In this document: positions 1 through 27,242 of the stretch, in pieces
Layout: each line of letters opens with the position of its first letter
Numbering within the stretch: position 1 is the stretch's first letter
IMG/VR virus record: IMGVR_UViG_3300013132_000148
Span: 1 to 32,402 of that record
From: a virus
Length of the DNA: 32,402 bases
Reading direction: 5' to 3' (one strand)
The notes under the pieces: model-generated
The model's input: only the letters and a program-made list of their open reading frames with translations
Told to the model about the DNA's origin: nothing
Database searches by the model: none
Program-made: the position numbers and the translations under genes

Positions 1-2416
1 GTACCGTTGTAGATTCGATTTTCGGCAGTGGCTTGGGCTAAGTTTTTGGCTTCTACAGTGCCGTAAATAGTACCGTTATAGACTCGGCCTTCGGCAGTGG
101 CTTTGACTAAATCCGCAGCAGCTTTAGATGGATAAATTTTACCTTCATATACTCTGCCTTGGGATACAGCGATATCAAAATTCTTTGCATTAGTAGCTGC
201 TTCTTTAGTGTCATATATAGTGCCGTTATAGACTCGCCCTTGTGCGGTGGCTTCAGCTAAGTTTTTGGCTTCTACAGTTTCATATATTTTGTTGTTGTAA
301 AACCGACCTTCATCTTTTGCTTTGACAGTATCAGCAGCTAATTTTGTAGGATAAACAATTCCACCATATACTCGACCTTCGCCTTCTGCCTTAGCAAAAA
401 TAGCTGCTTCTTTAGTGTCATATATAGTGCCGTTATAGACTCGACCTTCGGCAGTGGCTTGAGCTAAGTTTGCTTCTTCTATGGTGCCGTAAACTTTACC
501 GTTATAATACCTACCTTCTGCTTCAGCTCTAGCCCTCTCTGCACCTGTTTTAGTTTCATATATAACGCCGTTATAAGCATACCCCGCAGCTTCTTTTGCG
601 TCGTACTTGGTTGGGTATACAACTCCGTTATAGACTCGTCCTTCATCAGTAGCTTTGGCAAAGTCAGCCGCTTCTTTTGTTTCATATATTATAGTTTTAT
701 AATACCGACCTTCATCTGTCGCCCTAGCCCTATCTGCAAGTAATTTACTTCCATATATAGTGCCGTTATACGCTTTACCCGCTGCTTCTGCTGCGGCGTA
801 AGATTTTGCAAAATCAGCTTCAGCTTTAGTAGGGTAGAGTGTGCCGTTATACACTCGACCTTCGGCAGTTCCTTGGGCAAATTGTGCTAGCTGGCTTGTA
901 GCATAAATAGTACCGTTATACACCCGCCCTTGTGCAGTAGCTTCTGCAAGCTGTGCCTCAGCTTTGGTTGCAAAAACTTGGTCGTTATAGACGCGCCCTT
1001 CAAAAACAGCCTTAGCTTTATCCGCTGCATCTTTGGTGTTATAAGTAACCCCGTTAAATACCCGCCCTTCGGCAGTTGCTTTAGCTAAGTCCGCATCTTC
1101 TTTAGTAGTGTAAGTAACTCCACCATACACCCGACCTTCTGAAGTTGCTTTAGCTAAACCCGCCGCTTCTTTTGTGTCGTAAATGGTCCCCCCAAATACG
1201 CGCCCTTGTGCGGTGGCTTCGGCTAAGTTTTTGGCTGCTACAGTGCCGTAAATAGTGCCGTTATAGACTCGGCCTTCGGCAGTGGCTTGGGCTAAGTTTT
1301 TGGCTTCTACAGTGCCGTAAATAGTACCGTTATAGACTCGGCCTTCGGCAGTAGCTTGGGCTAAGTTTTTGGCTTCTACAGTAGGATAAGCAGTACCGCT
1401 ATACACCCGTCCTTCGCCTTCCGCCTTAGCAAAATTTGCTTCCCCTTGAGTAGCGTAAATAGTGCCGTTATAAACCCGCCCTTGTGCAGTGGCTTCAGCT
1501 AAGGCTTTAGCTGCATCGGCTTCAGCTTTAGTAGCGTAAGTAACCCCGTTATAGACCCGCCCTTGTGCGATTGCTAAATACCCATCTACCACCTCAGTAT
1601 CTATCTGTAACACCTCTGCAAGTTGAGTATTATTTAGCCCTGCGTTGTTTGCTATGGTTACAATTGCCGTAGCTTTAGCATCGTTACTTAGCCCAGTATC
1701 AGTCACAATTGAATTAACTTGGTTTGCAACGCTAGCCGCAGATGCCGCTGCTTCTTTGGTATCGTAAATTACTCCGTTAAACACCCTGCCTTCGGCAGTT
1801 GCTTGCGCCAACCCTTTAGCCGTGTCAGCTTCAGCTTTAGTGGCATAAATAGTATTGTTAAACACGCGCCCTTGCGCGGTAGCGTCTGCTAAGTTCTTAG
1901 CAGCTTCGGCTTCAGCTTTAGTAGTGTAAATAGTACCGTTATAATATCTTTGCTCTGCTATTGCGGTTCCTATGTTCCTAGCATTAGTTGCTTCCGACGC
2001 AGTAGCGTAAACAGTATTATTGTAGACCCTGCCTTCGGCAGTAGCTTTAGCAAAATTTGCATTTTCTTTTGTAGCGTAAATAGTACCGTTATAAACCCGT
2101 CCTTCGGCAGTGGCGGTGGCTAAATTATTCGCAGCCTCAGCTTGCGCTTTAGTAGCATAGATCACCCCATTAAATACTCGACCTTCAGCAGTAGCGTCTG
2201 CTAAGTTCTTAGCATTAGTTGCTTCCGCAGCGGTTGTATAGATAGTGCCGTTATAAACCCGCCCTTGTGCGGTGGCTTCAGCTAAGTTTTTGGCTTGTAC
2301 AGTAGCATAAGCAGTACCGTTGTAGACTCGACCTTCGGCAGTGGCTTTAGCAAAATCAGCAGCGTCTTTACTGGGATAAATAGTACCGTTATATACCCTG
2401 CCTTGACTTGCGGCTT
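1..2416 (-). repeat. About 32 tandem in-frame units of 69-81 bp encoding the GRVYNG repeat
   Basis: The basic unit is 23 codons (69 bp), with frequent 27-codon variants carrying four extra residues in the helical part. The consensus is ATAEGRVYNGTIY followed by about ten helix-prone residues rich in T, K, E and A (for example ATKAEAEAAK). Invariant or nearly so are G-R, an aromatic (Y or F), N-G or a substitute, and a second Y. The Y-N-G-T-I-Y core looks like a beta-hairpin with an Asn-Gly turn before a short helix. One non-repeat insert of about 50 residues splits the array near 1570-1720. Bases 21-98 and 1275-1352 are identical over 78 bases. Confidence 0.92.
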
Positions 2417-5400
2417 CGTTAGTTTTAGTTGTTACATACGCTTGAATTTCTTTTGCCGTATCTGCTTCCAACCCTACTTTAGCAAATTGAACAACTTCTG
2501 CGTCTGTTGGATTTTTATACCCAAGATCTAACATTGTCTGCTTGGCTTCAGCAAAATCAGTAGTTCTTGGATCTATATAATCCTGAATAGCTTTAGAAAG
2601 CGGTGCCCCTGAAAGTTCCGCAACTTGCCCTACGACTTCATTAACAACAGTTAATGTTGGGTCAATACCTACTGCACGTAATTCTGAAGCAGTGCGAAAA
2701 TACTCTTCACTTGTTATAGGGCTATCTTGATCTACCAAAGACCCATAGTTGGTCATGTCCCTAATAGTTAAGTTACCGCCAAGTTTAGCGTTAAGGTCTA
2801 ATGTGTCAGGTGCAACCGATTTAGTGCCGTCTATATATTGTTGAAGCGTAACTGGGTTACCGGCAGCGTCCTTAGCGACAAGCGCGGAATAATTAATAGT
2901 CCCCGGTGCTAGTGTGCTGACAGTAACTGTTGCCCCTATACCCGCTTCAAGCGCCCCAGCAGTTTGGGCTTGATCCCAATTTACTTTCCCAAACGAGGTA
3001 TATTGCATAGCTACGTTTTGTGCAAAGCCTTCCCCCCATTCAGTAAGATACCCTTTAGTAGTTTCTTTTGCTAGAAGATTTACGGACTGCTGTCTTAAAT
3101 CTCCCATAAATGCTTTAACTAACGTACTATCTCCCACCGCAGAAGACACAAGCCCGACTCCAGCAGCAAGCCATCCTGATTTAGCGGCTTGAGTTTTAGC
3201 TAGTTCTTCGCTACCTGTTCTTTTTAATACGTTGTCATAAGTTTCGGTATAGTTACTACTAAACGACTCCCCGGCGTTCATAAAACCATTAACCCCGGTA
3301 GCAGCAGTAAACGCCATGGAGCGCTGCCCAACCGCAATCATCATTCGCCCAACACCGCCGCTTGCTAGTAGGGGGAAGACTTCTTGAATAGCTTCTTTAC
3401 CAGCAAAAGTTATAAACCCTAAAGGGTTATCGTAAGCAGCTCTAAAAAATTCAAGGGATTTATTAATCGCGCCTGTTTGAGCGGCTACTCTATCGGTAAT
3501 ATTTTTTTCTTGAGCTTTGGTAATATCAGACTGAGTATTTGCCCCCCATTTAGTGGCTGCGTCTGCTACTCGGGCAACAACATTGTCTCGTTTTACAAGT
3601 CCTGTAGCCCAAACCAAATCACTCATTATTCTTGTAAATTCAGCGGTTCCTTGCGTTCCTACTGCAAGAATATCTTTTACTACGGCAGCAGTCGTAGTGT
3701 TACCACCATATTTATCTATAAGACTTTTTGTTATATTAAGTGCGTTTACTACTCCTAGCGCCGCAGTATCATCTCTAATTGCTACAGGATTTGATAACGT
3801 AGCTCCATCTTGCGTCGTGGTATATATAAACCAGTTACCATTACCCCCACTAACAAACTTGGCACCTGCTGGAAGGTATTTATTTGCAAATGCGTTGACG
3901 CTTAAAGATTCATCTTCGCTTCCTGCTGGGCTGTTCCATTTTTCAAGAAAGGTTGCTACTTCACTAGATGTAGCTAGTCTAGTTCCTTCAGGTAATTGAA
4001 ATTTGCCGTAATCCCCAGTTAAAGCGTCTATAGCGGCGGGCTTGTTATTATCATGATAAATATTAGTAATTTTTTCCGTACGTACTTCGACTGTGGGTTG
4101 ACCTTTCATCCACCCCCAAAATTCGGATAAGGTCATCCCCGAACTACTTTGCCTGCTATATTCAACTAAGTCTGTTTTTAACCTAGATACTTCTGGTTCC
4201 GTTAAATTGCCCGCGATACCGGCACCTACTTTATCTGCGTAACTCGCAGAAATAGTTTTAACTAAATTAGCCCCCGCTGAAAGGTCGCCTTTACCTAATC
4301 TATAAAGTGCAGCTAAGTCCGCGTCCGCAGCATCTGCACGCATGTACGCTTTCCATGTAGCTTCCGCTTCAGGAAGATCTTCAAGTACATCGGCAACAAC
4401 GGCAGCGTTATTTGATTCTTGTTGTATAAACTGTTTTAGCGTGGTTTCGTAAGCGTCTTGGCGAGCGTCTAGTGTGGGCTTAATTGCATCAAATTCATCT
4501 TTAATTGTGTCTAGATCCCCCATTAACTCATCCATCCTAGACTGCACTGGCTGGAATGTGGGGTAAATCTTATCGAATTCTGACTTAACAGTAGCTAGCC
4601 CTGCTTTTGCACCGTCAATATTTGTTTTTAACGTGTCCGCTTTATTGGCTAACGCCGTTCCGTTTGCATTTATGTCATCAACAAGTGCTCCCAAATCAAA
4701 AAATTGCGCCCCTGTACGTGTGTTTACCGCTCCCGCTACTGTAGCCATGTAACTGCCGCCACCGTTTTCGTCCTGATATTCAACCGGATAGGTTATAGTT
4801 TGAAATTTATAATCCCCTATTTGACTACCTATTCTGTTTGAAAACCACATGTAAGGCTTTTTTTGGTAGAACGGATGATTCATCCCGTGATTAGGATCTT
4901 GAGCAGCCGCAACTATCGCATTGAGATTATTAACTTCTTCATCTATCGCTCGTGCTTGAGGGATATAAGTATTATTTAATAGATCAAGATATTGTTTTTC
5001 TTGTGTTATTAAGGCGTTAACAGGTTCGGCTGCTGCTTCGTATTCAGGGAGAAAACTGTTTATCTGAGTTTTTACATCCCTTTCTCGTCTAATAAGCCCA
5101 CTAACCTGTTCTTCTGATTGTTGTAGTAGTGCCCCATCAGTGTTTAGCTTTGGCGCTAAATCTTTAAACGTTTTAGTAACTTCGTTAAATAATGTATTAA
5201 CTCCAGTAGCTTTAAGAGAACTTACAAACGCTTTATCAAAATCTGCCCCTGACACAAGCGTGGCAGCAACTGAAGTTTTTAATGCCCGTTCTAGCGCACT
5301 ACCACCATAACTTGCTCTTATCTTGTCAATCTCAGGAATACCGCCAACTACACTATCGATTGTTTTGCCAACTGCTTCACTTACCCCGGCACTTAACCCC

Positions 5401-5834
5401 CCTTTTACTAATGCTTTAACAGGGTCCGCTCCACTTATAGCCGCACTAAAAGAAGAAGTAAGCGCAGATTTAACAATTTGTTCTGATGAAGAAAAAAGTG
5501 AACTAGCAAGATCAGCAAATCCTAGATCGGCAGCAATTGTTGCGCCAGACATAGCAACGCTACCTGCGATTTCAGACGCGATTGTCCCCCCAAAATAAGA
5601 AGTAACCCCCCCAATTACAGCAGACTTAAGTATGTCTTCAACGCCTCCGCCTTCTATGGCGGTTATAGTTGCGGATATAGTTCCCGCCCCAATAGCAGAA
5701 GCAAGTACCCCTGTAGCTGATATACCGACTACTCCAGCTACTGCCGTACCTAACGCCGCAACCCCTGCGGCCACAGCAGAACCTATAGCAACTAGACCGG
5801 TAGCGGCAGCGGGGATAATAACAAAAAACGCCAT
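1..5834 (-). CDS. Giant virion-associated repeat protein, partial (C-terminus beyond left edge)
   Basis: This open frame runs from an ATG at 5834 off the left edge: 1,944 codons without a stop. The ATG lies two bases after the preceding stop. Residues 1 to about 210 are Gly/Ala-rich and hydrophobic, with many potential membrane-active helices. Residues about 380-480 are charged and coiled-coil-like. Residues about 800-960 hold further Gly/Ala-rich helices ending in TEWGEGFAQN, a style seen in phage ejection and polyvalent proteins. Residues about 1080-1135 form a helical module (DPRTTDF, then LGYKNPTDAEVVQF). From about residue 1140 onward there are about 32 tandem 23-27-residue units with the core GRVYNGTIY. 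I know no named family for the repeat. Position next to hub and fibre genes, size and the hydrophobic N-terminus suggest an internal ejection protein or a giant fibre. This function is inferred. Confidence 0.85.
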   Translation of the reverse strand, partial: MAFFVIIPAAATGLVAIGSAVAAGVAALGTAVAGVVGISATGVLASAIGAGTISATITAIEGGGVEDILKSAVIGGVTSYFGGTIASEIAGSVAMSGATIAADLGFADLASSLFSSSEQIVKSALTSSFSAAISGADPVKALVKGGLSAGVSEAVGKTIDSVVGGIPEIDKIRASYGGSALERALKTSVAATLVSGADFDKAFVSSLKATGVNTLFNEVTKTFKDLAPKLNTDGALLQQSEEQVSGLIRRERDVKTQINSFLPEYEAAAEPVNALITQEKQYLDLLNNTYIPQARAIDEEVNNLNAIVAAAQDPNHGMNHPFYQKKPYMWFSNRIGSQIGDYKFQTITYPVEYQDENGGGSYMATVAGAVNTRTGAQFFDLGALVDDINANGTALANKADTLKTNIDGAKAGLATVKSEFDKIYPTFQPVQSRMDELMGDLDTIKDEFDAIKPTLDARQDAYETTLKQFIQQESNNAAVVADVLEDLPEAEATWKAYMRADAADADLAALYRLGKGDLSAGANLVKTISASYADKVGAGIAGNLTEPEVSRLKTDLVEYSRQSSSGMTLSEFWGWMKGQPTVEVRTEKITNIYHDNNKPAAIDALTGDYGKFQLPEGTRLATSSEVATFLEKWNSPAGSEDESLSVNAFANKYLPAGAKFVSGGNGNWFIYTTTQDGATLSNPVAIRDDTAALGVVNALNITKSLIDKYGGNTTTAAVVKDILAVGTQGTAEFTRIMSDLVWATGLVKRDNVVARVADAATKWGANTQSDITKAQEKNITDRVAAQTGAINKSLEFFRAAYDNPLGFITFAGKEAIQEVFPLLASGGVGRMMIAVGQRSMAFTAATGVNGFMNAGESFSSNYTETYDNVLKRTGSEELAKTQAAKSGWLAAGVGLVSSAVGDSTLVKAFMGDLRQQSVNLLAKETTKGYLTEWGEGFAQNVAMQYTSFGKVNWDQAQTAGALEAGIGATVTVSTLAPGTINYSALVAKDAAGNPVTLQQYIDGTKSVAPDTLDLNAKLGGNLTIRDMTNYGSLVDQDSPITSEEYFRTASELRAVGIDPTLTVVNEVVGQVAELSGAPLSKAIQDYIDPRTTDFAEAKQTMLDLGYKNPTDAEVVQFAKVGLEADTAKEIQAYVTTKTNEAASQGRVYNGTIYPSKDAADFAKATAEGRVYNGTAYATVQAKNLAEATAQGRVYNGTIYTTAAEATNAKNLADATAEGRVFNGVIYATKAQAEAANNLATATAEGRVYNGTIYATKENANFAKATAEGRVYNNTVYATASEATNARNIGTAIAEQRYYNGTIYTTKAEAEAAKNLADATAQGRVFNNTIYATKAEADTAKGLAQATAEGRVFNGVIYDTKEAAASAASVANQVNSIVTDTGLSNDAKATAIVTIANNAGLNNTQLAEVLQIDTEVVDGYLAIAQGRVYNGVTYATKAEADAAKALAEATAQGRVYNGTIYATQGEANFAKAEGEGRVYSGTAYPTVEAKNLAQATAEGRVYNGTIYGTVEAKNLAQATAEGRVYNGTIYGTVAAKNLAEATAQGRVFGGTIYDTKEAAGLAKATSEGRVYGGVTYTTKEDADLAKATAEGRVFNGVTYNTKDAADKAKAVFEGRVYNDQVFATKAEAQLAEATAQGRVYNGTIYATSQLAQFAQGTAEGRVYNGTLYPTKAEADFAKSYAAAEAAGKAYNGTIYGSKLLADRARATDEGRYYKTIIYETKEAADFAKATDEGRVYNGVVYPTKYDAKEAAGYAYNGVIYETKTGAERARAEAEGRYYNGKVYGTIEEANLAQATAEGRVYNGTIYDTKEAAIFAKAEGEGRVYGGIVYPTKLAADTVKAKDEGRFYNNKIYETVEAKNLAEATAQGRVYNGTIYDTKEAATNAKNFDIAVSQGRVYEGKIYPSKAAADLVKATAEGRVYNGTIYGTVEAKNLAQATAENRIYNG

Positions 5835-5836
5835 TA

Positions 5837-6352
5837 TTAACTCTCTATTTTGGGGGGAGTAACAACATGATGGGCTTCAATTTTTGATAAGTTATCTTCT
5901 CCTACATGCGCGGTAGCTATAACGTTTACCCAAATACAATCCTCTAAAACAAACCCTATCCGACGTACACCGGGATCAGAAGCATAAACACAAGGGGCTT
6001 TCATAACCCGCCGCCCCATTTGAGAAACAACAGCAATCTCACCTTTTAATAAAACAATAATTGCGGGGTGCTTATGGGTGGCACCAACTACAATAGTCCC
6101 CTTTTTTAAGTGCATTTCCCGCCCATACAACGCGCAACCAAAGTCTTCATGAACAGTTGTAAAATGATGTTTGTATTCAAATTCCGCAGGGGTCAACGCG
6201 CCGTTAGTTAATTCTTTTTTGTATAAAGAAAGAAACTCATCATACTTAGCTTCAGTTAACATTTGGTCACGTATGGAGGGTAAAGAATCCCTAACCCCAT
6301 CAGCTAGATTAGGCGGCTTTATTGGCTTCAGATGATCTATATTAAGTTCCAT
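5837..6352 (-). CDS. Cupin-like small virion or accessory protein
   Basis: This 171-residue protein has a mostly helical N-terminal half that includes LTPAEFEYKHHFTTVHEDFG. The C-terminal half has the spacing of a single-stranded jelly roll: REMHLKKGTIVVGATHKHPA, then IVLLKGEIAVV, KAPCVYASDPGVRRIGFVLE and WVNVIATAH. The G-x(5)-H-x-H segment and the downstream GE-strand, loop and P-x-V pattern resemble the cupin fold. Metal binding by the two histidines is possible but unproven. I chose the ATG at 6352, which overlaps the previous gene by 11 bases, over a longer frame that begins with TTG at 6376. Similar proteins occur near tail genes of aquatic podoviruses as I remember them. The exact role is unknown. 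Confidence 0.7.
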   Translation of the reverse strand: MELNIDHLKPIKPPNLADGVRDSLPSIRDQMLTEAKYDEFLSLYKKELTNGALTPAEFEYKHHFTTVHEDFGCALYGREMHLKKGTIVVGATHKHPAIIVLLKGEIAVVSQMGRRVMKAPCVYASDPGVRRIGFVLEDCIWVNVIATAHVGEDNLSKIEAHHVVTPPKIES

Positions 6353-6794
6353 TGAATAATGTCTTATAGTAAGCAATTACAGGGGTTTTATCATCTTTAA
6401 ATTCTTTAGAATTTTTAAACCCAAACTTATCTAACAACTTTTTAAATGGCCCAAACAATTTAACAGGAGAAGATATATACGCAATATAAACCCCTAAACT
6501 TTTTAACTTTTCAAATAAGTAAGGAAGTTCTTTTTCAAGCATATTAAACTTTTCTTCTTCTTTAGGGTTTCCCCCAATCATAGCGTGAAATTCAACGATA
6601 TTCTTACCGCGTACAGATATTAAAAATACAATTTCTTTTGTAATGTCGGAGTATATGAGTTTATCTCCTTCTTTTTGTATAGCAGCCGCTATTTCCCTAA
6701 GCGCTACTTCAACTTTTTCTTGGTCGCCGCCTAGTTGCCTAGTAAAATGCTCTACTACAATACGTTGGATATTTTGAATTTCTTCTTCGTTCAT
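6342..6794 (-). CDS. Conserved-looking phage protein of unknown function (150 aa)
   Basis: I do not recognise this protein. It starts at an ATG that overlaps the preceding stop in an ATGA junction, so it is probably translationally coupled. Residues 1-45 are helical and charged. Residues about 46-75 contain two strand-like stretches (KLIYSDITKEIVFLISV and NIVEFHAMIGG). Residues about 80-125 are an amphipathic helix and a strand (LFEKLKSLGVYIAYISS), followed by KLLDKFGFKNSKEF. This strand-helix-strand order, with a late KFGFK segment, could be a small acyltransferase-like (GNAT) fold, but I see no convincing acetyl-CoA loop. It sits between a fibre-like gene and the cupin-like gene and is lower in GC than its neighbours. 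Confidence 0.7.
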   Translation of the reverse strand: MNEEEIQNIQRIVVEHFTRQLGGDQEKVEVALREIAAAIQKEGDKLIYSDITKEIVFLISVRGKNIVEFHAMIGGNPKEEEKFNMLEKELPYLFEKLKSLGVYIAYISSPVKLFGPFKKLLDKFGFKNSKEFKDDKTPVIAYYKTLFNGT

Positions 6795-7435
6795 GGTGGT
6801 GTGGGCCTTGGATCGGGTAACGGAGCGATAAAGTTTACCGCTAAAACGCCTGACGGTATACCGGGGTGGGGAGCCGTTGCAGCTTCTGCATCCAACCTTA
6901 TGGCGGTGCTATCCGCAGCAATTTGCAATTCTATGTACTCCCCGGCAACTAAGTCAATATTAAAGTTCCAGCTTATTTCCGCGTAGTGGTTGTTATCGTG
7001 GAATGTCCACGCATGGGTTGAGTAGCCTATGTTGGTACCGTTACGTGCAATCCAGAGATACAGGTTTTTATCCCCCGAGCTTGTTGTCTTAACTTGCCCC
7101 GAATACTGAAAGTTGTACACCCCATTAACGCTAACTTCTACCCTAGAGGTGCTTCCGGCCTGTAACGCAACGGCGTTGTTCAGGTATGAGTTGTTAAAAA
7201 CTACAGGGTATGCAGTATTGATAGCCGCAAAGGTTTGGTCGGCGGTGTTGAAAAATAGCCCATTAGGGCAGTCAATAAACTGCCCACCGTTAGTGCCAAG
7301 TAAGTTTTGCGTAACATTTTGTATCCGGGAAAAGTAAAGACGTACAACGTTGGCAAACTGATCCTGATACCTAGCATCCCATATCTCTGGGGAAAGCGGC
7401 AGGTTGGGTGCCGGAGGGTTTTTTAGGATGGTCAT
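6791..7435 (-). CDS. Fibre-like or receptor-binding structural protein (214 aa)
   Basis: The protein begins with a proline-rich segment, PPAPNLPLSPEIWDARYQDQ, then an amphipathic stretch (FANVVRLYFSRIQNV). This short N-terminus recurs in small tail or virion proteins of aquatic phages as I recall them and probably docks on the particle. Residues about 60-205 alternate strands and turns rich in N, T, G and S (VEVSVNGVYNFQYSGQVKT, LYLWIARNG, YIELQIAADS). This resembles a jelly-roll or C1q/TNF-like head domain used for trimeric receptor binding. The C-terminus ends in prolines. ATGA junctions at both ends link it to the hub-like gene upstream and the 150-aa gene downstream. The adhesin role is inferred from fold pattern and position. 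Confidence 0.72.
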   Translation of the reverse strand: MTILKNPPAPNLPLSPEIWDARYQDQFANVVRLYFSRIQNVTQNLLGTNGGQFIDCPNGLFFNTADQTFAAINTAYPVVFNNSYLNNAVALQAGSTSRVEVSVNGVYNFQYSGQVKTTSSGDKNLYLWIARNGTNIGYSTHAWTFHDNNHYAEISWNFNIDLVAGEYIELQIAADSTAIRLDAEAATAPHPGIPSGVLAVNFIAPLPDPRPTPP

Positions 7436-9558
7436 ACACCTTGTCCTGTGGCCCTACCATCAAGACGCAGATCAATTCTAGGGGTGCCAATCTGCCAAGC
7501 ATTACCGAGATCAGTAGACTCAACCTTAATGATCATCTGCCTACCACGCACCCGGATGTACACCTGCCCTGTGAACCGTTCAATATTAACTGTCGTAAGC
7601 CGCTGGATAGCTGCCGAAGAACTGCCCCCTATTGACTGTGGAGTGTTATACCCAGAGCCGGAATTTATGAGCGGTAGCAGTGTCATCGTAACTTGCGGGG
7701 ACTCCGCAGTCGAATTATCAAACGTAATGTCAGGTACGATACGGTATACAAACGCTAAGTTCTGCCCATCCTCAATATCAAATTCGGCTGATTCGATGTA
7801 AGCGTTAATAGCCACCGGCGTTTCACTTGTCTGATCATCCCAACCTAATTCATGGTTAACGACGTTATAGCTGTAGGTTGCGGCTTGCGGGTAAGCACGT
7901 AACCCCGAATCACTCCAAGCTGTACGCCCCATGGTACCGTAGTACCAAACATCTTCTACATAGTTATACACTACGTATTGGTCTATTACGGTTGAATTTA
8001 GTGAGGGATAAAACCACCAAACTTCATTAAATCCTTCATTGGTACCTGCAAATATTTGGTCGGTTTGTGAAGGATTTAAATTAGAAAATATATGCCGTCT
8101 AAGATCACAGCGTAGTGTCTGCACCCGACCATCGTATTTGTAGAACTTATCAACCCCCATCCAATACACAATGCCTGATGCAACGATTGCCGAATGTGCG
8201 CTTATGATTGATATGTTGTCGCCTAATAGCTGAGTACCCCACACAACAGGTGGGCCTTGATACTGCAATGAGTACAGCGAAGCATCTGTAAACACAACAA
8301 TTTCTTGGCGAGTTTGCACCACCGTAACAATTTCCGACCCATGCGATAACCGCAAAGATCCTGCCTGACTTGTAGCTGCGGGAACCCAATCTACTAAAGA
8401 TTCTTGGTCCGACCACCGAATAAGCATAGGGTCTAGCACCGCACTACCATAATCTGTAGTGCCAAAAAGTATTAAAAATCTTGAAGCATCAGAAATAATA
8501 AATGTGTTCGTTTTAGTCGGTACATCTACAAGTTCCGATATGTAAACATTTGACCCTGTGGACGCAGCATTAACTAACGGTCCTGTGGGAACCAGAGAAA
8601 TATTTGCTGTGGCCCCAGCAACATTTCGCAAGTAATAAGTTGTATTTGCTGATATCCCAGAAGGCATTGTGGGCGGGTTGCCCGGAGCATTAAATTGAAC
8701 TGCGGTGCCTTCTACTAAACTACTTTCATTTAGTGTAACGACTGTAGGAGAAGCGGCTGTAAAAGTTACACTCCCCCCAATCGTATTAAGTTCTACCCCT
8801 CTAGCTGATACCCCAGTTGTTGCATCCCAGTAGTACAGCGCCCCGCCGCGAGGAAGAAACACAAGATCCTCCCCCCAATTTTCAGCCTCCCATAACCTCA
8901 ACTGTTCGGTACCGGGAAGACCTATCCCCCACGTACCTTGCCCCCAGCCGCCGGAACCCCAACCAATAACCGCACCTTGAATAGCTGGGCCTACAGAGAT
9001 TTCGTATTTGGCCGTTACCGTGCTACCGCCGCCCGTGGCTATTGACGAAGCATTTGTTGAAACGGTAATTGTGTAAGTGTTAGTCGTAACGTTTGCAATT
9101 TGATGATTAGCATTTAGTTCAGTAGCCGGTATCCCCCCAACAGGCGCCAGAACCCCGCTAAAAGTAACAAAATCCCCATTCTTAGCGCCATGTGCGATGT
9201 CAGTTACTAAAACCCGATTGGCAGTTCCGGCTGTAATGTTGGTTGTAAAAGGGTCTGTACCCAGCGTCACCGTCTTACGTATTGGCGTGATGTCATAGTA
9301 ATTGCCGCCACGCTCAATATAGAATTTAAGATTCGTCCCAACCGCTAACAAGTTATCAAAACTAAGCGTCACCCAGTTCCATAGTAGGCGGCAAATTCCT
9401 TGAAAGGTGCTACCAGAGATGCGCTGCCACCCGCCAATTTTTTCTGGTGTGCCTTGACGAAAACGCACCTTCTCACTGATATACCAGCCATTTTCGTTGG
9501 TATACCGCGTATTTTCTTTGTTGACTCCGGGCTTAAATTGTATTTTCTTAAGTGGCAT
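7432..9558 (-). CDS. P22 gp10-like tail hub / packaged-DNA stabilisation protein
   Basis: This 708-residue protein opens with MPLKKIQFKPGVNKENTRY and WYISEKVRFRQGTPEKIGGW, the typical start of the phage stabilisation protein family. P22 gp10, the family's best-known member, closes the connector so that packaged DNA stays in the head. The middle and C-terminus have blade-like segments with tryptophan and DGR (MGVDKFYKYDGRVQTLRCDL, NEGFNEVWWFYPS), consistent with a propeller-like hub. Residues about 105-200 hold Ig-like or fibre-like inserts (ITAGTANRVLVTDIAHG). It is longer than P22 gp10 (about 470 aa), and the inserts explain much of the difference. The ATG follows a GAGGT ribosome-binding sequence that spans the endolysin stop. 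Confidence 0.8.
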   Translation of the reverse strand: MPLKKIQFKPGVNKENTRYTNENGWYISEKVRFRQGTPEKIGGWQRISGSTFQGICRLLWNWVTLSFDNLLAVGTNLKFYIERGGNYYDITPIRKTVTLGTDPFTTNITAGTANRVLVTDIAHGAKNGDFVTFSGVLAPVGGIPATELNANHQIANVTTNTYTITVSTNASSIATGGGSTVTAKYEISVGPAIQGAVIGWGSGGWGQGTWGIGLPGTEQLRLWEAENWGEDLVFLPRGGALYYWDATTGVSARGVELNTIGGSVTFTAASPTVVTLNESSLVEGTAVQFNAPGNPPTMPSGISANTTYYLRNVAGATANISLVPTGPLVNAASTGSNVYISELVDVPTKTNTFIISDASRFLILFGTTDYGSAVLDPMLIRWSDQESLVDWVPAATSQAGSLRLSHGSEIVTVVQTRQEIVVFTDASLYSLQYQGPPVVWGTQLLGDNISIISAHSAIVASGIVYWMGVDKFYKYDGRVQTLRCDLRRHIFSNLNPSQTDQIFAGTNEGFNEVWWFYPSLNSTVIDQYVVYNYVEDVWYYGTMGRTAWSDSGLRAYPQAATYSYNVVNHELGWDDQTSETPVAINAYIESAEFDIEDGQNLAFVYRIVPDITFDNSTAESPQVTMTLLPLINSGSGYNTPQSIGGSSSAAIQRLTTVNIERFTGQVYIRVRGRQMIIKVESTDLGNAWQIGTPRIDLRLDGRATGQGV

Positions 9559-9560
9559 TT

Positions 9561-10028
9561 TTACCTCATTAAGGCAGCTTCGGCAGCGCGACGGCGGGTG
9601 AGACCGGGGAGAACTCGACCGGCAGCTTTATTCCACAGCATACATTGATCTGCCGCACCATCCCAGTCCCCCGCATCAACGCGCTTCTTGAACGTAGAAA
9701 CCCGATAGTTTCCTAGGCCACAATTGTAGACCCAGCTTGTCACTGCGGCAATGCGTCGCGGTAGTGCGGTTTGAATCTTAGGTGAAAGCTTGGTTATGCC
9801 CTGTACGAAATATTCTATATGATGGTCAAGCGCCTCTTCGCACTGCTGCATCGTCCAGATGGTTCCGGGGTTAATGTCTGGTCCGGTTGCACCCCAACCG
9901 ATTGTCCAAGGATGCCCACGGGTTCCGGGGTCGGGATAGGCTTGAACTCGTCCGTCAGGCAAACGCTTTGCCAGCCCTTCAAAGGGCTTGATCAATACAT
10001 CCTTACAAAGCTTCTTTGCCTCATTCAC
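9561..10028 (-). CDS. Endolysin, GH24 lysozyme (muramidase) family
   Basis: It cleaves the N-acetylmuramic acid to N-acetylglucosamine beta-1,4 bond of peptidoglycan to release progeny. The family catalytic triad is visible: Glu17 in PFEGL, Asp33 in AYPDPG and Thr42 in WTIGWG, numbered from the chosen GTG at 10028. Family landmarks follow: WVYNCGLGNYRVSTF and the C-terminal PGLTRRRAAEAALM. The Glu-to-Asp spacing is 16 instead of about 9, because of a small insertion (LAKRLPDGRVQ). The frame is open back to a TTG at 10067, but the GTG forms a GTGA overlap with the holin stop and keeps the protein at 155 residues, normal for the family. No signal or SAR sequence is present, so holin release is expected. 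Confidence 0.9.
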   Translation of the reverse strand: MNEAKKLCKDVLIKPFEGLAKRLPDGRVQAYPDPGTRGHPWTIGWGATGPDINPGTIWTMQQCEEALDHHIEYFVQGITKLSPKIQTALPRRIAAVTSWVYNCGLGNYRVSTFKKRVDAGDWDGAADQCMLWNKAAGRVLPGLTRRRAAEAALMR

Positions 10029-10510
10029 GACTTGTTGTACTTCTCGATGGACCGCCCTACAAACCAAAACGTCAACATCATATTGAGCATGGCGAAGTCA
10101 TCTTCATCATAGCTTTTAGTCAGCACCTCAGCCCAGTTTGCGTTGGTTTGAAACGCAATCGTCAGACCGGCTGCTTTAACAGCCACATACACGCCAAAAG
10201 CAATCCAAGTAAGGCCCGGACGGGTAATAGCAGTGATAAAAGACGCAAGCCACCCAGCTTCCTTAGCAGTGGTAGCCTGTTCCTTAAATGCCTCTTTAAT
10301 CGTATCCATTTGCGAAATGGAGTAATCAACATACTTCTCCTCCATCTTGAACTCGCCACGAAGCTTCTCTAAGTCAGTCTGAAGCTGGAACATAGACAGC
10401 TCATGCTGGCGTTCGTTCTTCTTGTCCAAGAACTTCAGTATTTCAGGTGCTAACCTGAATAAGCCACCAAATATGGACCCCATCAACCCGCCGCCGAGAA
10501 GCTCAAACAT
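10025..10510 (-). CDS. Holin, 3TM gene-transfer-release type
   Basis: This 161-residue protein matches the layout of the three-transmembrane holin family (GTA_holin_3TM). A glycine-rich hydrophobic N-terminus (MFELLGGGLMGSIFGGLFRL) is followed by a charged helical segment (DKKNERQHELSMFQLQTDLE). Then come the hydrophobic stretches WLASFITAITRPGLTWIAFG and VYVAVKAAGLTIAF, and a final one, MLNMMLTFWFVGRSIEKY. It would accumulate in the inner membrane and form the lesion through which the endolysin passes. Its stop overlaps the endolysin start by four bases, which supports a lysis cassette. I see no spanin pair next to it, although a Gram-negative host is likely from the overall gene set. Confidence 0.82.
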   Translation of the reverse strand: MFELLGGGLMGSIFGGLFRLAPEILKFLDKKNERQHELSMFQLQTDLEKLRGEFKMEEKYVDYSISQMDTIKEAFKEQATTAKEAGWLASFITAITRPGLTWIAFGVYVAVKAAGLTIAFQTNANWAEVLTKSYDEDDFAMLNMMLTFWFVGRSIEKYNKS

Positions 10511-10523
10511 AATTACTTTACCT

Positions 10524-12521
10524 CTATATATAAACTGTCGTTGAGGATTGGGTCGATGTGTAATTATTAAATGTTGCTGTTGGTGTTGTCATAACCGGAG
10601 CAGATATCGTAGTTGTTGGGGTTTCTGTAAACCAATTGAGTGTTGCTTGAGTTATGCTTTGTAAAGCATATGTTGTTGGCTGTCCGTACGGACCAACCGT
10701 ATAAGTACCTGTCCGTGATCCGTCTAAAGGAACTTGTGCAATCCCTGTGTATATGTTAGAAGAAGCAGCGTCTGACCAAGCGGCTATTAAATTTGTCGGT
10801 GAACTTACTAACCAATTTGAGCCGAGTTGAACAGTGCTACCGCTTACCGTTGATATTTTATTTGACCACTGAATAGCGCCAGATGTATTAAATTTTACTA
10901 ATATAATTGGGTATATACTGGGAGAGGCGGACGACGCGTCTCTATATGAAATATAAGGATTTCCAAAACTGTCTACGGTCACTCCGTATGCTGGGCTGTC
11001 GTAAAAAGATGAAGAATTTATAGTTCGTAATTCTGTAGTCCATAATAAAGTCAAACTGCTATCGAATTTACACAATATAGGTCCCTGTCTATTTGTTCCA
11101 AATGAATTGCTTCCAATCCTTCCGGTTGCATAAATATTATCTGACGCATCTAAGGCGATACTAAAAAATCGTGAATTTCGCGTTCCGCCAGCACCAGATG
11201 AATCTTGCATTCTTACACTAGATAATAAACTGCCAGACGTATTAAATATATATATGGCGGGTGATACGTAATTATTAGTCCCACCGTATGCGTATGTACC
11301 TCCAATTACTAAATTCCCTGAAGAATTTATTTTAATACTGTATCCAACACTGCCGGAAGCCAAGGAATTAAAAGGAAACATCCGAGTAAACCATTGCAAA
11401 ACTCCAGAAGAATTGTGTTTTGCAACAAATAAATAGTTACTAGTGAAATTTGTATACCCTGTTGTGTATATATTCCCTGAGCTATCAAGAACCATCCCAT
11501 AAACTCTTGTCGATAAATTAGACTGTTGTATCGGGGTTGTTTGCGAAGGCCAAAATAAATTTTGCCACTGAATTGTGCCGCTAGAATTTAGTTTGACAAT
11601 AAAGCCTCTAACTCCACCGGGAGGTGAGGTGTTACCATCATTGTTATAGCCGCCAGCTACAAAAACATTACCAGACGAATCAACGGTTATTGCATAACCA
11701 ACATCTTGTTGTGTTGTACCCCCATCTAGTTTTATTTGCCATTGAAGAACACCATCTTTATTGTATTTAATTACATTAACACCATAACTTGCACCGTTAC
11801 CTGAACCCTGACCTGTAATATAAATATTGTCCTGAGCATCCTTATAAACTGTCGTGCCGTATTGCGGTTCTGATGTAAGTGCTCCGTAGTATGCCGCCAT
11901 CCAATAGCTTGGGCTTACCGATAAAGAAACAGAGTCAGACCCTGTAGCTGTTTCTGCAACGCTCCGATTTGCCAAAGGCACGCCAATTACCTCGTCGTCG
12001 CCTAATGCAACTTCTGTTATTGTGTTTAAAGTTGTTCGGTTTGATGTAATTACATCGCTTGCAGTACCCATTTCTGCAATATTGTTCGTTGTAAGGACCG
12101 TCTGCTGCGGCGTGTCTGTAATGCTCGCTGTTTCTGTAACCGTCTTACTAAATGACCCAATATTAGAAATAGCATCCGTTGCAGTTGCCGTTTCTGCCGT
12201 TATGACAGTTTGGTCGCCTATCGTGCTAATAATATCGCTTATCGTGGCTGTTTCATTGATGGTGTTTAAAAAGCCTCGATCACCTTGGATTGAGTCTGAT
12301 CCAGTGGCTGTTTCTAATACTTGATTTAAGCTATTAAGCAAGCTTGCTATTGCGTCTGCCGCTGTAGAGGTCTCGCTTATTGCAGAATCGTATGATACAG
12401 CTCTGGATGGAGAGTCTGTTATGGTCACCGATTCTTGTACAGCGCTTTGATACATGACGCCTGTCTTGCCAAAGCCAAACCCTCTGGCGCTTGCGGAACC
12501 TAAACGCTGAATGATTGGCAT
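10524..12521 (-). CDS. Fibre protein: 20-residue ETATGxD repeats plus seven-bladed SBBP-like propeller
   Basis: This 665-residue protein has three parts. Residues 1-27 are an N-terminal tip (IQRLGSASARGFGFGKTG). Residues 28 to about 207 are nine copies of an approximately 20-residue unit with the core ETATGSDS. Residues about 212-640 are seven propeller blades with signatures such as DSSGNVFVAGG, LDSSGNIYTTGY and DSFGNPYISY, each followed by a K-Y/F-x-x-x-G-x-x-x-W strand. This is the SBBP pattern of seven-bladed beta-propellers. The repeat resembles that of the 541-aa protein two genes upstream. A likely reading is a fibre shaft carrying a receptor-binding propeller. Fold and repeat are visible; the adhesin role is inferred. 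Confidence 0.85.
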   Translation of the reverse strand: MPIIQRLGSASARGFGFGKTGVMYQSAVQESVTITDSPSRAVSYDSAISETSTAADAIASLLNSLNQVLETATGSDSIQGDRGFLNTINETATISDIISTIGDQTVITAETATATDAISNIGSFSKTVTETASITDTPQQTVLTTNNIAEMGTASDVITSNRTTLNTITEVALGDDEVIGVPLANRSVAETATGSDSVSLSVSPSYWMAAYYGALTSEPQYGTTVYKDAQDNIYITGQGSGNGASYGVNVIKYNKDGVLQWQIKLDGGTTQQDVGYAITVDSSGNVFVAGGYNNDGNTSPPGGVRGFIVKLNSSGTIQWQNLFWPSQTTPIQQSNLSTRVYGMVLDSSGNIYTTGYTNFTSNYLFVAKHNSSGVLQWFTRMFPFNSLASGSVGYSIKINSSGNLVIGGTYAYGGTNNYVSPAIYIFNTSGSLLSSVRMQDSSGAGGTRNSRFFSIALDASDNIYATGRIGSNSFGTNRQGPILCKFDSSLTLLWTTELRTINSSSFYDSPAYGVTVDSFGNPYISYRDASSASPSIYPIILVKFNTSGAIQWSNKISTVSGSTVQLGSNWLVSSPTNLIAAWSDAASSNIYTGIAQVPLDGSRTGTYTVGPYGQPTTYALQSITQATLNWFTETPTTTISAPVMTTPTATFNNYTSTQSSTTVYI
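11901..12440 (-). repeat. Nine tandem 20-residue ETATGxD units in the propeller fibre
   Basis: Successive units begin at conserved E-[ST]-x-[ST]-x-x-D cores: ESVTITDS, ETSTAADA, ETATGSDS, ETATISDI, ETATATDA, ETASITDT, EMGTASDV, EVALGDDE and ETATGSDS. Spacing is about 20 residues with one-residue shifts. The unit is the same type as in the 541-aa protein. Confidence 0.88.
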
Positions 12522-15153: not shown

Positions 15154-15519
15154 TTACTCCGTCACAACCCAGCTTGTTGTTGGCTCATCCCAATTGTAAA
15201 ACCGCCCATCATCAGGGATGGGTACCGGAGACTCCCATCTGCATGTGTCTTCGTTTAACACCCAAGATGGATAAGGTTGCGGAGAAATAAAAGCATCTCT
15301 TGCAGCATCATATGTATCCCCAAGAGCTGCGAAGTTCTTTCTTATCCTGCCGTTGTAGCTAGTTTGCCTCCAGAGGCTGTAACCCCCAGACCAATTGGTT
15401 AAAAAATCAATGCCTTTTTGTTCTTGCTCAACACCGTTTTCGTCCAACAATTCCCTATTTTCTAAGCAGTTAACGTCGATAACAATATTGTTTTCATCTA
15501 ACTTTGCAAAGTGAGCCAT
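15154..15519 (-). CDS. Conserved phage protein of unknown function (121 aa)
   Basis: The protein begins MAHFAKLDENNIVIDVNCL and carries ELLDENGVEQEQKGIDFL, YNGRIRKNFAALGDTYDA and FISPQPYPSWVLNEDTCRWE, ending near WDEPTTSWV. I recall proteins with these landmarks from cyanophages and other aquatic phages, usually among structural genes, but no function is established to my knowledge. The last 40 residues, rich in W and P, resemble a small beta-structured binding module. The ATG at 15519 shares a base with the stop of the oxygenase gene and follows GGAGG at short spacing. A GTG three bases earlier is the alternative start. Tight coupling to the oxygenase suggests the two are made together. Confidence 0.8.
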   Translation of the reverse strand: MAHFAKLDENNIVIDVNCLENRELLDENGVEQEQKGIDFLTNWSGGYSLWRQTSYNGRIRKNFAALGDTYDAARDAFISPQPYPSWVLNEDTCRWESPVPIPDDGRFYNWDEPTTSWVVTE

Positions 15520-16109
15520 CACACCTCCAATCGCAAGCCTGTTAGCTCAACCTCTTCTCCAACAACGCCTACGGGGAACGTATTGAAGGATAATGAAATC
15601 CTTATGGTGTCACCCTCGACTGTTGGGACCATATGCGTCAGTGATGACGGGAATAAAATTAACCGCCCTTCAAATGCCTCAAACCACCAGCTCTCAGAAT
15701 TGTATTCATTATAGTTTTCTGATGGAAATTTTATTTGCTTCCACTTGTCCCTGTAAAAATAAATTCTGTCGTTCGGGTTTGTTTGGATGTAATACACACC
15801 AGATATATAAGAGTTTGGATGCGAGTGTTTATGGTGGTGTTGACCGGGGCTTGAAAAATTTGCCCACGATTGAGTGATTCGCAGACTAACGTCATGCTTA
15901 GGGCGTACGGTACTTTGGAAGTACAAATTGACGCTTTCTTCTATAAATGAGCGTAGCGCCGTCATCCCATTTAAAATCTTATTATTTGTACTTGTTGTGT
16001 TACCTAGATTAGGTCTTTGCTCTAAATTTAAAATAAATAATTTTTCTTCGTCTGTAATAGCACGATCAAAGAAACCAATTGGCGTTGGGAATAGATTGTG
16101 TACATTCAT
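15519..16109 (-). CDS. Putative 2-oxoglutarate/Fe(II)-dependent oxygenase
   Basis: Enzymes of this family use Fe(II), O2 and 2-oxoglutarate to hydroxylate a substrate. This one matches the TIGR02466/2OG-FeII_Oxy_5 pattern: MNVHNLFPTPIGFFDR at the start, QSWANF, then HKHSHPNSYISGVYYIQ with candidate metal ligands His95 and His97. LILFPSSLTHMV follows with the distal His159, then DTIRISLSFN with Arg170, which should hold 2-oxoglutarate. At 196 residues it is normal length. I chose the ATG at 16109 because it overlaps the adhesin stop by one base and has AGGA upstream; an earlier in-frame start at 16142 would intrude on the adhesin gene. The substrate is unknown; neighbouring virion proteins or the host surface are guesses. 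Confidence 0.85.
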   Translation of the reverse strand: MNVHNLFPTPIGFFDRAITDEEKLFILNLEQRPNLGNTTSTNNKILNGMTALRSFIEESVNLYFQSTVRPKHDVSLRITQSWANFSSPGQHHHKHSHPNSYISGVYYIQTNPNDRIYFYRDKWKQIKFPSENYNEYNSESWWFEAFEGRLILFPSSLTHMVPTVEGDTIRISLSFNTFPVGVVGEEVELTGLRLEV

Positions 16110-17083
16110 CACGTCCATCCTATGGTACCGTTGCCTTGCCATACATAAATACGATACCCGCCAGCTACTATTGGATACCCAGTAGCAACGCCTGTAGTTG
16201 TTGTAGGAGCGCCAAAAGCTGTTGAAAACTTAAGAGCAACAATGCCAGAAGATCCCGCACCTCCATAACCTGTTGACGTTCCCTGCCCTCCACCACCGCC
16301 ACTTCCTGTAAACGCATTAGGAGCTGCACTACCAGCAGCGCCTGCGCCACCATTGCCTCCGGCCCCAGATCCTCCAGAACCTGCCGGTCTGCCTGCCGTA
16401 CACCCACCGCCGCCACCACCAGCATAAGTAACTGAAGATCCTGTTATAGAGTTTGTTGTGCCTGTACCTCCATTGCCTCCAGCAGTGCCTGATCCAATAG
16501 AGCCAGCCGACCCTATACCACCACCGCCACCACCACCAGCCGCTGGGTTTGTATTACTACCCGTACCACCATTATTGCCTTGAGGTGGTGATCCAGAGCC
16601 AGCCGTTACTGGGTTGTTCCCGCCGCCACCACCCGACCCCCCCGATGCACCTACTCCGGCGTTTGCGCCGCCCCCACCACCGCCTGTTGATGATATTGAA
16701 TAAGAAGGTGCTGGGCTTGTAGCTGGAGCTGTTATTGATGAATTAAAACCCGGATTTCCGGTACCGCTTGCAGTTTTTTGGGCACCGGCTGCGCCCACCG
16801 TTATTGTAAAAATCTGCCCACTAGCAATACTGGTTATGTTTCCTGTGCGGTAACCACCAGCGCCGCCACCCCCGCCTACGCTTCCCGATCCACCTCCGCG
16901 CCCACCACTAGCGCCGCCAGCAAGAACTAAATATTCTACTGTAGTAGGTATTGGTCCGGGCCAAGTATCACTGTCTAGGGCGCGGAACTGTTCGTTAATT
17001 GTCCACACACCTCGCGCAACGCCGTTTGCCGGTAAATTAACAGCGCCAAAAACACCACCGTTTACACCTAATCCAACGGGCAT
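16109..17083 (-). CDS. Glycine-rich tail adhesin (324 aa)
   Basis: Residues about 45-285 consist of a VEYLVLAGGASGG start strand followed by long glycine runs (SVGGGGGAGGYRTG, STGGGGGGANAGVGASGG, AGGGGGGGIGSAGSIGSG, SGGGGGQGTSTGYGGAG). This is the glycine-rich domain of phage adhesins, which can pack as a polyglycine-II bundle with variable loops that touch the receptor. The C-terminal 45 residues (GIVALKFSTAFG, YRIYVWQGNGTIGWT) are a small strand domain commonly found at the end of such proteins. The ATG abuts the previous stop. The DNA is GC-richer than surrounding genes because of GGN codons. Placement among fibre genes supports a receptor-contact role, which is inferred. Confidence 0.85.
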   Translation of the reverse strand: MPVGLGVNGGVFGAVNLPANGVARGVWTINEQFRALDSDTWPGPIPTTVEYLVLAGGASGGRGGGSGSVGGGGGAGGYRTGNITSIASGQIFTITVGAAGAQKTASGTGNPGFNSSITAPATSPAPSYSISSTGGGGGGANAGVGASGGSGGGGGNNPVTAGSGSPPQGNNGGTGSNTNPAAGGGGGGGIGSAGSIGSGTAGGNGGTGTTNSITGSSVTYAGGGGGGCTAGRPAGSGGSGAGGNGGAGAAGSAAPNAFTGSGGGGGQGTSTGYGGAGSSGIVALKFSTAFGAPTTTTGVATGYPIVAGGYRIYVWQGNGTIGWT

Positions 17084-26867: not shown

Positions 26868-27242
26868 CTACGCACGCGAAACGCCTCGCGGATCGGCAAC
26901 GACTGCTTCAATTGAATCGTCGTTCATTAATCGATATTCAACGCCATTTACCCTAAATCGGGTACCTGTGTTAGCCCTAAACAGCACATAATCGCCCACT
27001 TTGCACCACGGCCCTGATGTATAACGATCAGGGTCTTTGTAGGCTTGATCACCCATATCTAAAACCAAACCCACGACTGTCAGAAGTTTTTCTTCATAAA
27101 CAGTCTTTTCGGCTTTATAAAGTCCTGTATCGCCAAAGGTTTCGTCAATCTTAGGTAAAGCAATAAGCAACCGGTATCCGACAGGCTTAGGCAATTGCAG
27201 CTCAAGTTCTTCGTCAGTCACGGCGTTTTGGTTGTCAGTCAT
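26868..27242 (-). CDS. GroES-like co-chaperonin (Cpn10 fold)
   Basis: Residues 15-115 follow the Cpn10 pattern. PVGYRLLIALPKIDETF is the first strand region, and GDTGLYKAEKTVYEEKLLTV occupies the mobile-loop position. VVGLVLDMGDQAYKDPDRY, WCKVGDYVLFRANTGTRFRV and NGVEYRLMNDDSIEAVV end the fold. Cellular GroES uses an I-V-L type tripeptide in the loop to grip GroEL; here the corresponding loop reads GDTGLYKA, so the contact differs. T4 gp31 is the known precedent for a phage co-chaperonin that helps the capsid protein fold. Placement between portal and scaffold supports that role. Start is an ATG with eight bases of overlap. Confidence 0.82.
   Translation of the reverse strand: MTDNQNAVTDEELELQLPKPVGYRLLIALPKIDETFGDTGLYKAEKTVYEEKLLTVVGLVLDMGDQAYKDPDRYTSGPWCKVGDYVLFRANTGTRFRVNGVEYRLMNDDSIEAVVADPRGVSRA

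Follow-up and report, generated by a model that had tools for sequence, protein, structure and literature searches.

Few components of short-tailed phages are as poorly understood as the ejection proteins, in particular the way in which they span envelopes that differ in thickness. Those of SU10 are described as leaving the head through the tail and extending a channel across the periplasm (PMC9509320), those of T7-like and other podophages as exiting via the tail and extending the channel (PMC8954989), and those of PhiM1 as exiting the head through the tail and lengthening the channel (PMC11440229). According to the review of T7-like and other podophages, the ejection protein genes form an operon, the proteins vary greatly in size, size and synteny are the usual basis for identifying gp15-like proteins, and the largest gp15-like and gp16-like proteins have 982 and 1,337 amino acids (aa), respectively (PMC8954989). 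Proteins with LPD39 or ART-PolyVal domains belong to the polyvalent proteins, for which injection alongside the phage DNA has been proposed (PMC5512222).

Here we describe a giant gene, P0001, in a 32,402-base stretch of phage DNA that is an entire IMG/VR virus record and is called the window below. P0001 and its relatives share with the ejection proteins of T7 (gp14, gp15, and gp16), P22, SU10, and PhiM1 the operon position after the nozzle gene and a large, variable size. However, P0001 has no detectable sequence similarity to these proteins in the libraries searched, and the consulted portions of the papers on them mention no tandem beta-beta-alpha array. The GRVYNG unit that makes up the P0001 array is a new repeat, while P0001 itself is not a new kind of system.

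A giant gene that ends inside a tandem array

P0001 (3..5834, minus strand), recognized by its open reading frame (ORF) and by family homology, starts with an ATG at 5834 and runs through 1,944 codons to position 3 without a stop before the left window edge, so that the protein has at least 1,944 aa. The contig end falls inside the GRVYNG array, which fills residues 1145 to 1944 (3..2402, minus strand) with 31 complete units and one cut unit. This agrees with the first-pass annotation of this DNA, which had placed a minus-strand gene of at least 1,944 aa at 5834 and assigned about 800 of its residues to tandem units. Ahead of the array lie a Gly/Ala-rich N-terminal module common to the family (residues 52 to 203; 5226..5681, minus strand), a family core (residues 716 to 949; 2988..3689, minus strand), and a region with one YVDPR-type 45-aa helical repeat (residues 1052 to 1138; 2421..2681, minus strand). 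The N-terminal module was assigned from composition and a family HMM; the annotation had pointed out a hydrophobic, Gly/Ala-rich N-terminus. In a check for the hydrophobic or membrane-interacting segments of ejection proteins, the one strongly hydrophobic N-terminal segment in P0001 is at residues 3 to 21, and the homologues have none above a stricter threshold. There is no cysteine in the 1,944 aa, and the array is near neutral, with a net charge of -4 over 800 aa. A sister contig (L002) encodes the first 583 residues of P0001 with a single substitution and stops before the array.

The GRVYNG unit is under selection and is predicted to be a beta-beta-alpha repeat

The core of the unit is GRVYNGTIYxTK, and a regular expression for it gave 30 matches in P0001; 1,000 shuffled versions of the protein gave 0.03 on average and 2 at most. 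The earlier length range of 23 to 27 aa fits the 21 units of 23 aa and the 8 of 27 aa but not one unit of 19 aa and one of 76 aa (residues 1349 to 1424), the latter carrying an insert of about 55 residues. This insert in unit 9 (approximately residues 1365 to 1424; 1563..1742, minus strand) is helix-rich by sequence, and no relative of it was found. Near-invariant positions include G0 and R1 (30 of 32 units each), A-4 (30), Y3 (27, with F in the other 5), N4 (26), and G5 (27), as well as Y8 (30 of 31 units) and T10 (28 of 31, with S in the other 3).

At the DNA level, tandem repeats were detected in two short stretches only. Identity between units is 46% at third codon positions, 74% at first positions, and 71% at second positions, with a mean pS of 0.67, a mean pN of 0.26, and pN below pS in 464 of 465 unit pairs. 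Since the units differ mostly at synonymous sites, the protein sequence of the unit is under purifying selection, and the near-saturated synonymous divergence shows that the repeats are old. We also found that units 13 and 31 have one and the same DNA sequence and that a 78-nucleotide exact repeat (21..98, identical to 1275-1352; strand not assigned) lies 20 bases from the contig end and represents a recent unit duplication; thus, the array appears to be still changing in copy number. The same exact repeat could be the cause of the contig stop.

We modeled units 10 to 19 with AlphaFold2 from an alignment made up of two further stretches of this array and obtained a mean pLDDT of 93.6 and a pTM of 0.59. 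In each of the ten modeled units, two strands joined by a turn precede a helix that is about 11 residues long (15 in the unit of 27 residues), so the unit is predicted to be a beta-hairpin with an Asn-Gly turn plus a short helix, as the first-pass annotation had proposed, and to have a regular fold rather than to be disordered. The sequence fits this model, with Asn-Gly at the turn, Tyr, Val, and Ile in the strands, and Thr, then Lys and Glu/Ala, starting the helix. The pTM of 0.59 makes the path and shape of the whole array less certain, and the earlier term "helical-hairpin rod" is inexact for a beta-beta-alpha unit.

A Foldseek search of the array model against the PDB and BFVD returned nothing at an E value of 0.001 or better, which we did not count as proof of a new fold. 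The top PDB rows were tandem C2H2 zinc fingers bound to DNA (E 0.014, TM 0.12). VIA-align gave Z scores of at most 3.6 overall and at most 3.5 for zinc fingers; its best row, itself weak, was the stem of a phage receptor-binding protein (5efv_A, Z 3.6 over 42 residues). Tandem C2H2 arrays likewise consist of beta-beta-alpha units of 23 to 30 aa, but they have two Cys and two His ligands per unit, whereas P0001 lacks cysteine, is near neutral in the array, and has no significant structural score. We therefore rejected a zinc-finger array.

The annotation had recognized no named repeat family, and we found none for the unit in Pfam, PHROGs, NCBIfam, or PDB sequences. The Pfam matches of the array were weak, all below cut-off, and scattered over unrelated families, so they were treated as chance, and the best PHROGs match for the unit was 0.0041. 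The unit was not found in phage records, plasmids, IMG/VR, or 32 related phage records, and no relative was detected in IMG/VR with DNA or peptide patterns of the unit, whether exact or degenerate; the positive control, the window itself, gave 19 matches. Several candidates were rejected. None of 24 unit-pattern matches in a genome collection was confirmed, and the matches listed for a looser two-unit pattern there were chance matches, a MORN-like protein, and YNG-rich proteins. A single match (E 7e-4) in 398 genomes of one phylum came from a locus with a shikimate-dehydrogenase-like long ORF and was judged to be chance. Searching phages and plasmids with the array by tblastn gave chance matches only, a match in a Methylomonas plasmid was an unrelated FLYNGSTYTTL repeat, and a locus first taken as a relative (L003) matched over only 28 residues, in a 1,313-aa ORF with a different gene context. 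The GRVYNG unit matches no described protein repeat in the libraries searched and has so far been found in one phage.

The body of P0001 belongs to a family of giant podophage proteins

Retrieval of IMG/VR loci through the nozzle protein yielded a locus (L051, the same gene as L090) whose post-nozzle ORF aligns to P0001 residues 1056 to 1157. A search with that ORF led to further IMG/VR loci, several of which encode full-length proteins of 1,687 to 2,318 aa. When P0001 residues 716 to 1138 were aligned to this family with hhalign, the score was 99.7%, compared to at most 9% for the reversed control, and family HMMs matched P0001 in the N-terminal module (E 4.6e-9), the core (E 8e-8), and the YVDPR region (E 1e-13). 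Within the last region, an HMM of the 45-aa unit matched residues 1086 to 1118 (E 1.4e-9), and blastp gave 45% identity over 66 aa to L097; the core matched L092 by blastp (E 6e-11). Judged by these sequence comparisons, the first 1,144 residues of P0001 are homologous to giant IMG/VR podophage proteins, and P0001 is not an orphan. This giant protein family is without annotation in the libraries searched. The core is mostly helical in a low-confidence AlphaFold2 model of a homologue, which was too poor (pLDDT 59.7) for its fold matches to be used.

The homologous giants (L090 and L092 to L104) occupy the same post-nozzle slot and share the N-terminal module, core, and YVDPR region with P0001, but where P0001 has GRVYNG units they carry 1 to 16 copies of an unrelated 45-aa helical repeat (consensus YVDPRQVTEAEARAFFxxLGYxPTDAEVxxFVGQ), and GRVYNG units are absent from them. 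A profile of the 45-aa repeat counted 16 copies in L097, 7 in L094, 3 to 4 in L093 and L090, and one in several others and in P0001; no Pfam or PHROG family matched it above cut-off. The 16 copies in L097 (gene at 4803-11756) stand in tandem at residues 1190 to 1956 (YVDPRQVTEAEAR...). In complete homologues, the repeats are followed by helical, partly coiled-coil-like sequence and then by a conserved C-terminal tail (SPYAKGG...). Because the repeats of the homologues lie at the matching place, the GRVYNG array starts where their own repeats lie; with the contig ending inside the array, it either replaces the helical-repeat arrays or is added to them. Among 12 homologues, any cysteine is confined to the first eight residues of the open frame. 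The first-pass proposal of an undescribed element holds for the unit in every library tried but not as an isolated novelty, since P0001 is one of a family of giants with other repeats at the same place.

The slot after the nozzle gene is conserved in position and variable in content

The locus is anchored by a 708-aa tail nozzle protein (7432..9558, minus strand; phrog_3287, E 1.5e-57), and a profile of this protein and its relatives matches the solved nozzles 8zkk_O and 8zkm_E (E 9e-10) and 9nwi_Y (E 5e-19). A group of small genes separates it from P0001. These encode a 214-aa C1q-like protein (6791..7435, minus strand; PF00386, a weak match below cut-off at E 0.0064), a 150-aa protein placed by synteny (6342..6794, minus strand) with no family in Pfam or PHROGs, and, directly upstream of P0001, a 179-aa short-tail-fiber/adhesin-like protein (5837..6376, minus strand; phrog_12032, E 1.6e-21, and phrog_24280, E 7.7e-19). 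In the window and in L010 to L018, the C1q-like gene seems to occur in two interchangeable forms that share the N-terminus and differ in the C-terminal part (GQFIDCPNGLFFNTADQTF... or GRFLSNPFGAWSSDSDQVAVSTT...), which suggests that a binding head is swapped. Genes for an SU10-type adaptor (PF24175), portal, and terminase round out a podophage structural module in the window. By nozzle and portal, its named relatives include DSL-LC04, Planktothrix phage Pag-Yong1, Pelagibacter phages HTVC023P and HTVC027P, and Roseobacter phages CRP-901 and CRP-902, which, where annotated, have tail tape measure, internal virion, or DNA transfer genes after the nozzle gene.

The order of nozzle gene, a few small genes, and giant gene is found in 18 of 18 homologous loci and also in the window, where P0001 starts at 5834. 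Downstream of the giant gene, the homologous loci have a gene with a SDGEFVIPADVV motif (visible in eight distinct loci), a gene of about 300 aa, a gene of about 620 aa, and a very large gene of about 1,900 to 2,100 aa with an LPD39 or ART-PolyVal domain. No SDGEFVIPADVV pattern occurs in the window, which is what a contig ending inside the array should show. The last large gene lies at 19596-25301 in L090, 17449-21399 in L093, and 15376-21471 in L097, with an LPD39 or ART-PolyVal (ADP-ribosyltransferase) domain, and an HExxH-like motif (HVLLHEMTH) is visible in the L093 and L097 products. These large polyvalent proteins, block neighbors of the giant gene, have a motif weakly similar to the P0001 core but differ from P0001, in whose visible 1,944 aa no enzymatic domain was detected with Pfam or NCBIfam. 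A core common to both was considered, with an HMM match for L069 at E 5e-13, but hhalign gave 62% between the family profiles and 8% for P0001 alone, so the likeness is only suggestive.

Among closer nozzle relatives (62 to 72%) in which both anchors are visible, the slot mostly holds an unrelated gene of 314 to 389 aa; one phage lacks a slot gene, the slot gene of another encodes 683 aa, and giants occur in others. Homology of the 314- to 389-aa proteins to the P0001 N-terminus was not supported (11% at best). From these differing contents, we conclude that the slot is mosaic and very variable in length. In a close nozzle relative, a 698-aa protein (L011, 12424-14517) has a further tandem repeat, also short (GGADTVVAG). 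Beyond the single gene, the finding is a slot in which giant ejection-block proteins of one family carry repeats that are exchangeable and variable in length.

P0001 as a probable ejection protein

Where the first-pass annotation had left a choice between an ejection protein and a giant fiber, homology and synteny favor the former. Position, variable size, lack of cysteine, and the polyvalent neighbor make it the most likely reading that P0001 is a giant podophage ejection (internal virion, pilot) protein with the exchangeable GRVYNG array as a rod or spacer, and we consider this probable. P0001 is encoded in the block after the nozzle, as podophage ejection proteins are, and other repeats at the array place in homologues, the regular predicted fold of the unit, and purifying selection also count in its favor. 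Against it, there is no sequence match to a characterized ejection protein in Pfam, PHROGs, or the PDB, the slot is occupied by unrelated small genes in the phages closest by nozzle identity, and P0001 would be unusually large compared to the largest gp15-like and gp16-like proteins cited above. N4-type virion RNA polymerases are larger still; no Pfam or PHROGs match to an N4-type RNA polymerase module was found in the visible 1,944 aa, the C terminus, like the downstream genes of this phage, being beyond the contig.

If P0001 is an ejection protein, it would be stored in the head, with residues 1 to 1144 forming the Gly/Ala-rich, helical body common to the family in this slot. It would pass the narrow portal-nozzle channel (approximately 30 Å) largely unfolded and refold in the periplasm, its very small units one by one; tiny cysteine-free units would suit such unfolding and refolding. 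The array may then span or tether part of a trans-envelope conduit, with a length set by the number of units and altered by recombination between them. A more far-reaching proposal is that the new metal-free beta-beta-alpha repeat is a variable-length unfold-and-refold rod and that podophages swap unrelated arrays (YVDPR helical, coiled-coil-like, and GRVYNG) in this slot, tuning conduit span to the host envelope; we offer this tentatively and regard it as doubtful in full. With a homologous family that has one slot and interchangeable arrays differing greatly in length and fold, the idea of a spacer can be put to the test, by setting array length against the host envelope and by measuring it on ejected complexes. 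The GRVYNG unit, a compact, near-ideal, metal-free repeat, is open to direct expression and structure solution.

Long repeat arrays occur in fibers and adhesins, and P0001 could instead be a giant tail fiber or appendage whose array is a long external stalk, with a receptor-binding tip encoded past the contig edge. The short-tail-fiber/adhesin-like and C1q-like genes between the nozzle gene and P0001 are consistent with this, as is the weak receptor-binding protein stem match. However, the last part of the complete homologues is a short conserved tail in which no fiber tip or chaperone is recognizable, L097 has no Pfam fiber domain, neither the Gly/Ala-rich N-terminus nor the core resembles the adaptor-binding base of a fiber, and the polyvalent-type block comes after the giant gene in homologues. 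We consider a fiber unlikely. Visible P0001, which stops short of its C terminus at the contig edge, has no Pfam or PHROG fiber match.

Gene order and helical composition would look identical if P0001 were a virion protein that, instead of being ejected, remained in the head, formed an internal core or scaffold around the portal, and organized DNA by means of its array, and podophage internal cores are described as forming grooves that hold DNA coils (PMC11440229). This reading is less likely again, since the internal proteins encoded after the nozzle are described as ejected in studied podophages (PMC8954989, PMC9509320) and the near-neutral array is not DNA-binding in character. Neutral charge and the lack of Cys ligands also tell against a metal-free DNA-binding array of zinc-finger-like topology that coats or tracks the entering genome; the shared beta-beta-alpha unit of the DNA-bound zinc fingers in the top Foldseek rows speaks for it, but those scores are not significant, and we regard it as very improbable.

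Other genes of the structural region

A divergent GroES-like co-chaperonin gene (26868-27242, minus strand; NCBIfam, E 3.8e-6, below cut-off) lies between the portal and capsid genes of the window, and relatives such as CRP-902 and Pag-Yong1 have an annotated GroES in the corresponding place. Among the tail genes are one for a 665-aa protein with SBBP beta-propeller repeats (10524-12521, minus strand; Pfam, E 1.4e-12) and a 2OG-Fe(II) oxygenase gene (15519-16142, minus strand); DSL-LC04 and HTVC023P also have 2OG-Fe(II) oxygenase genes, upstream of the nozzle gene.
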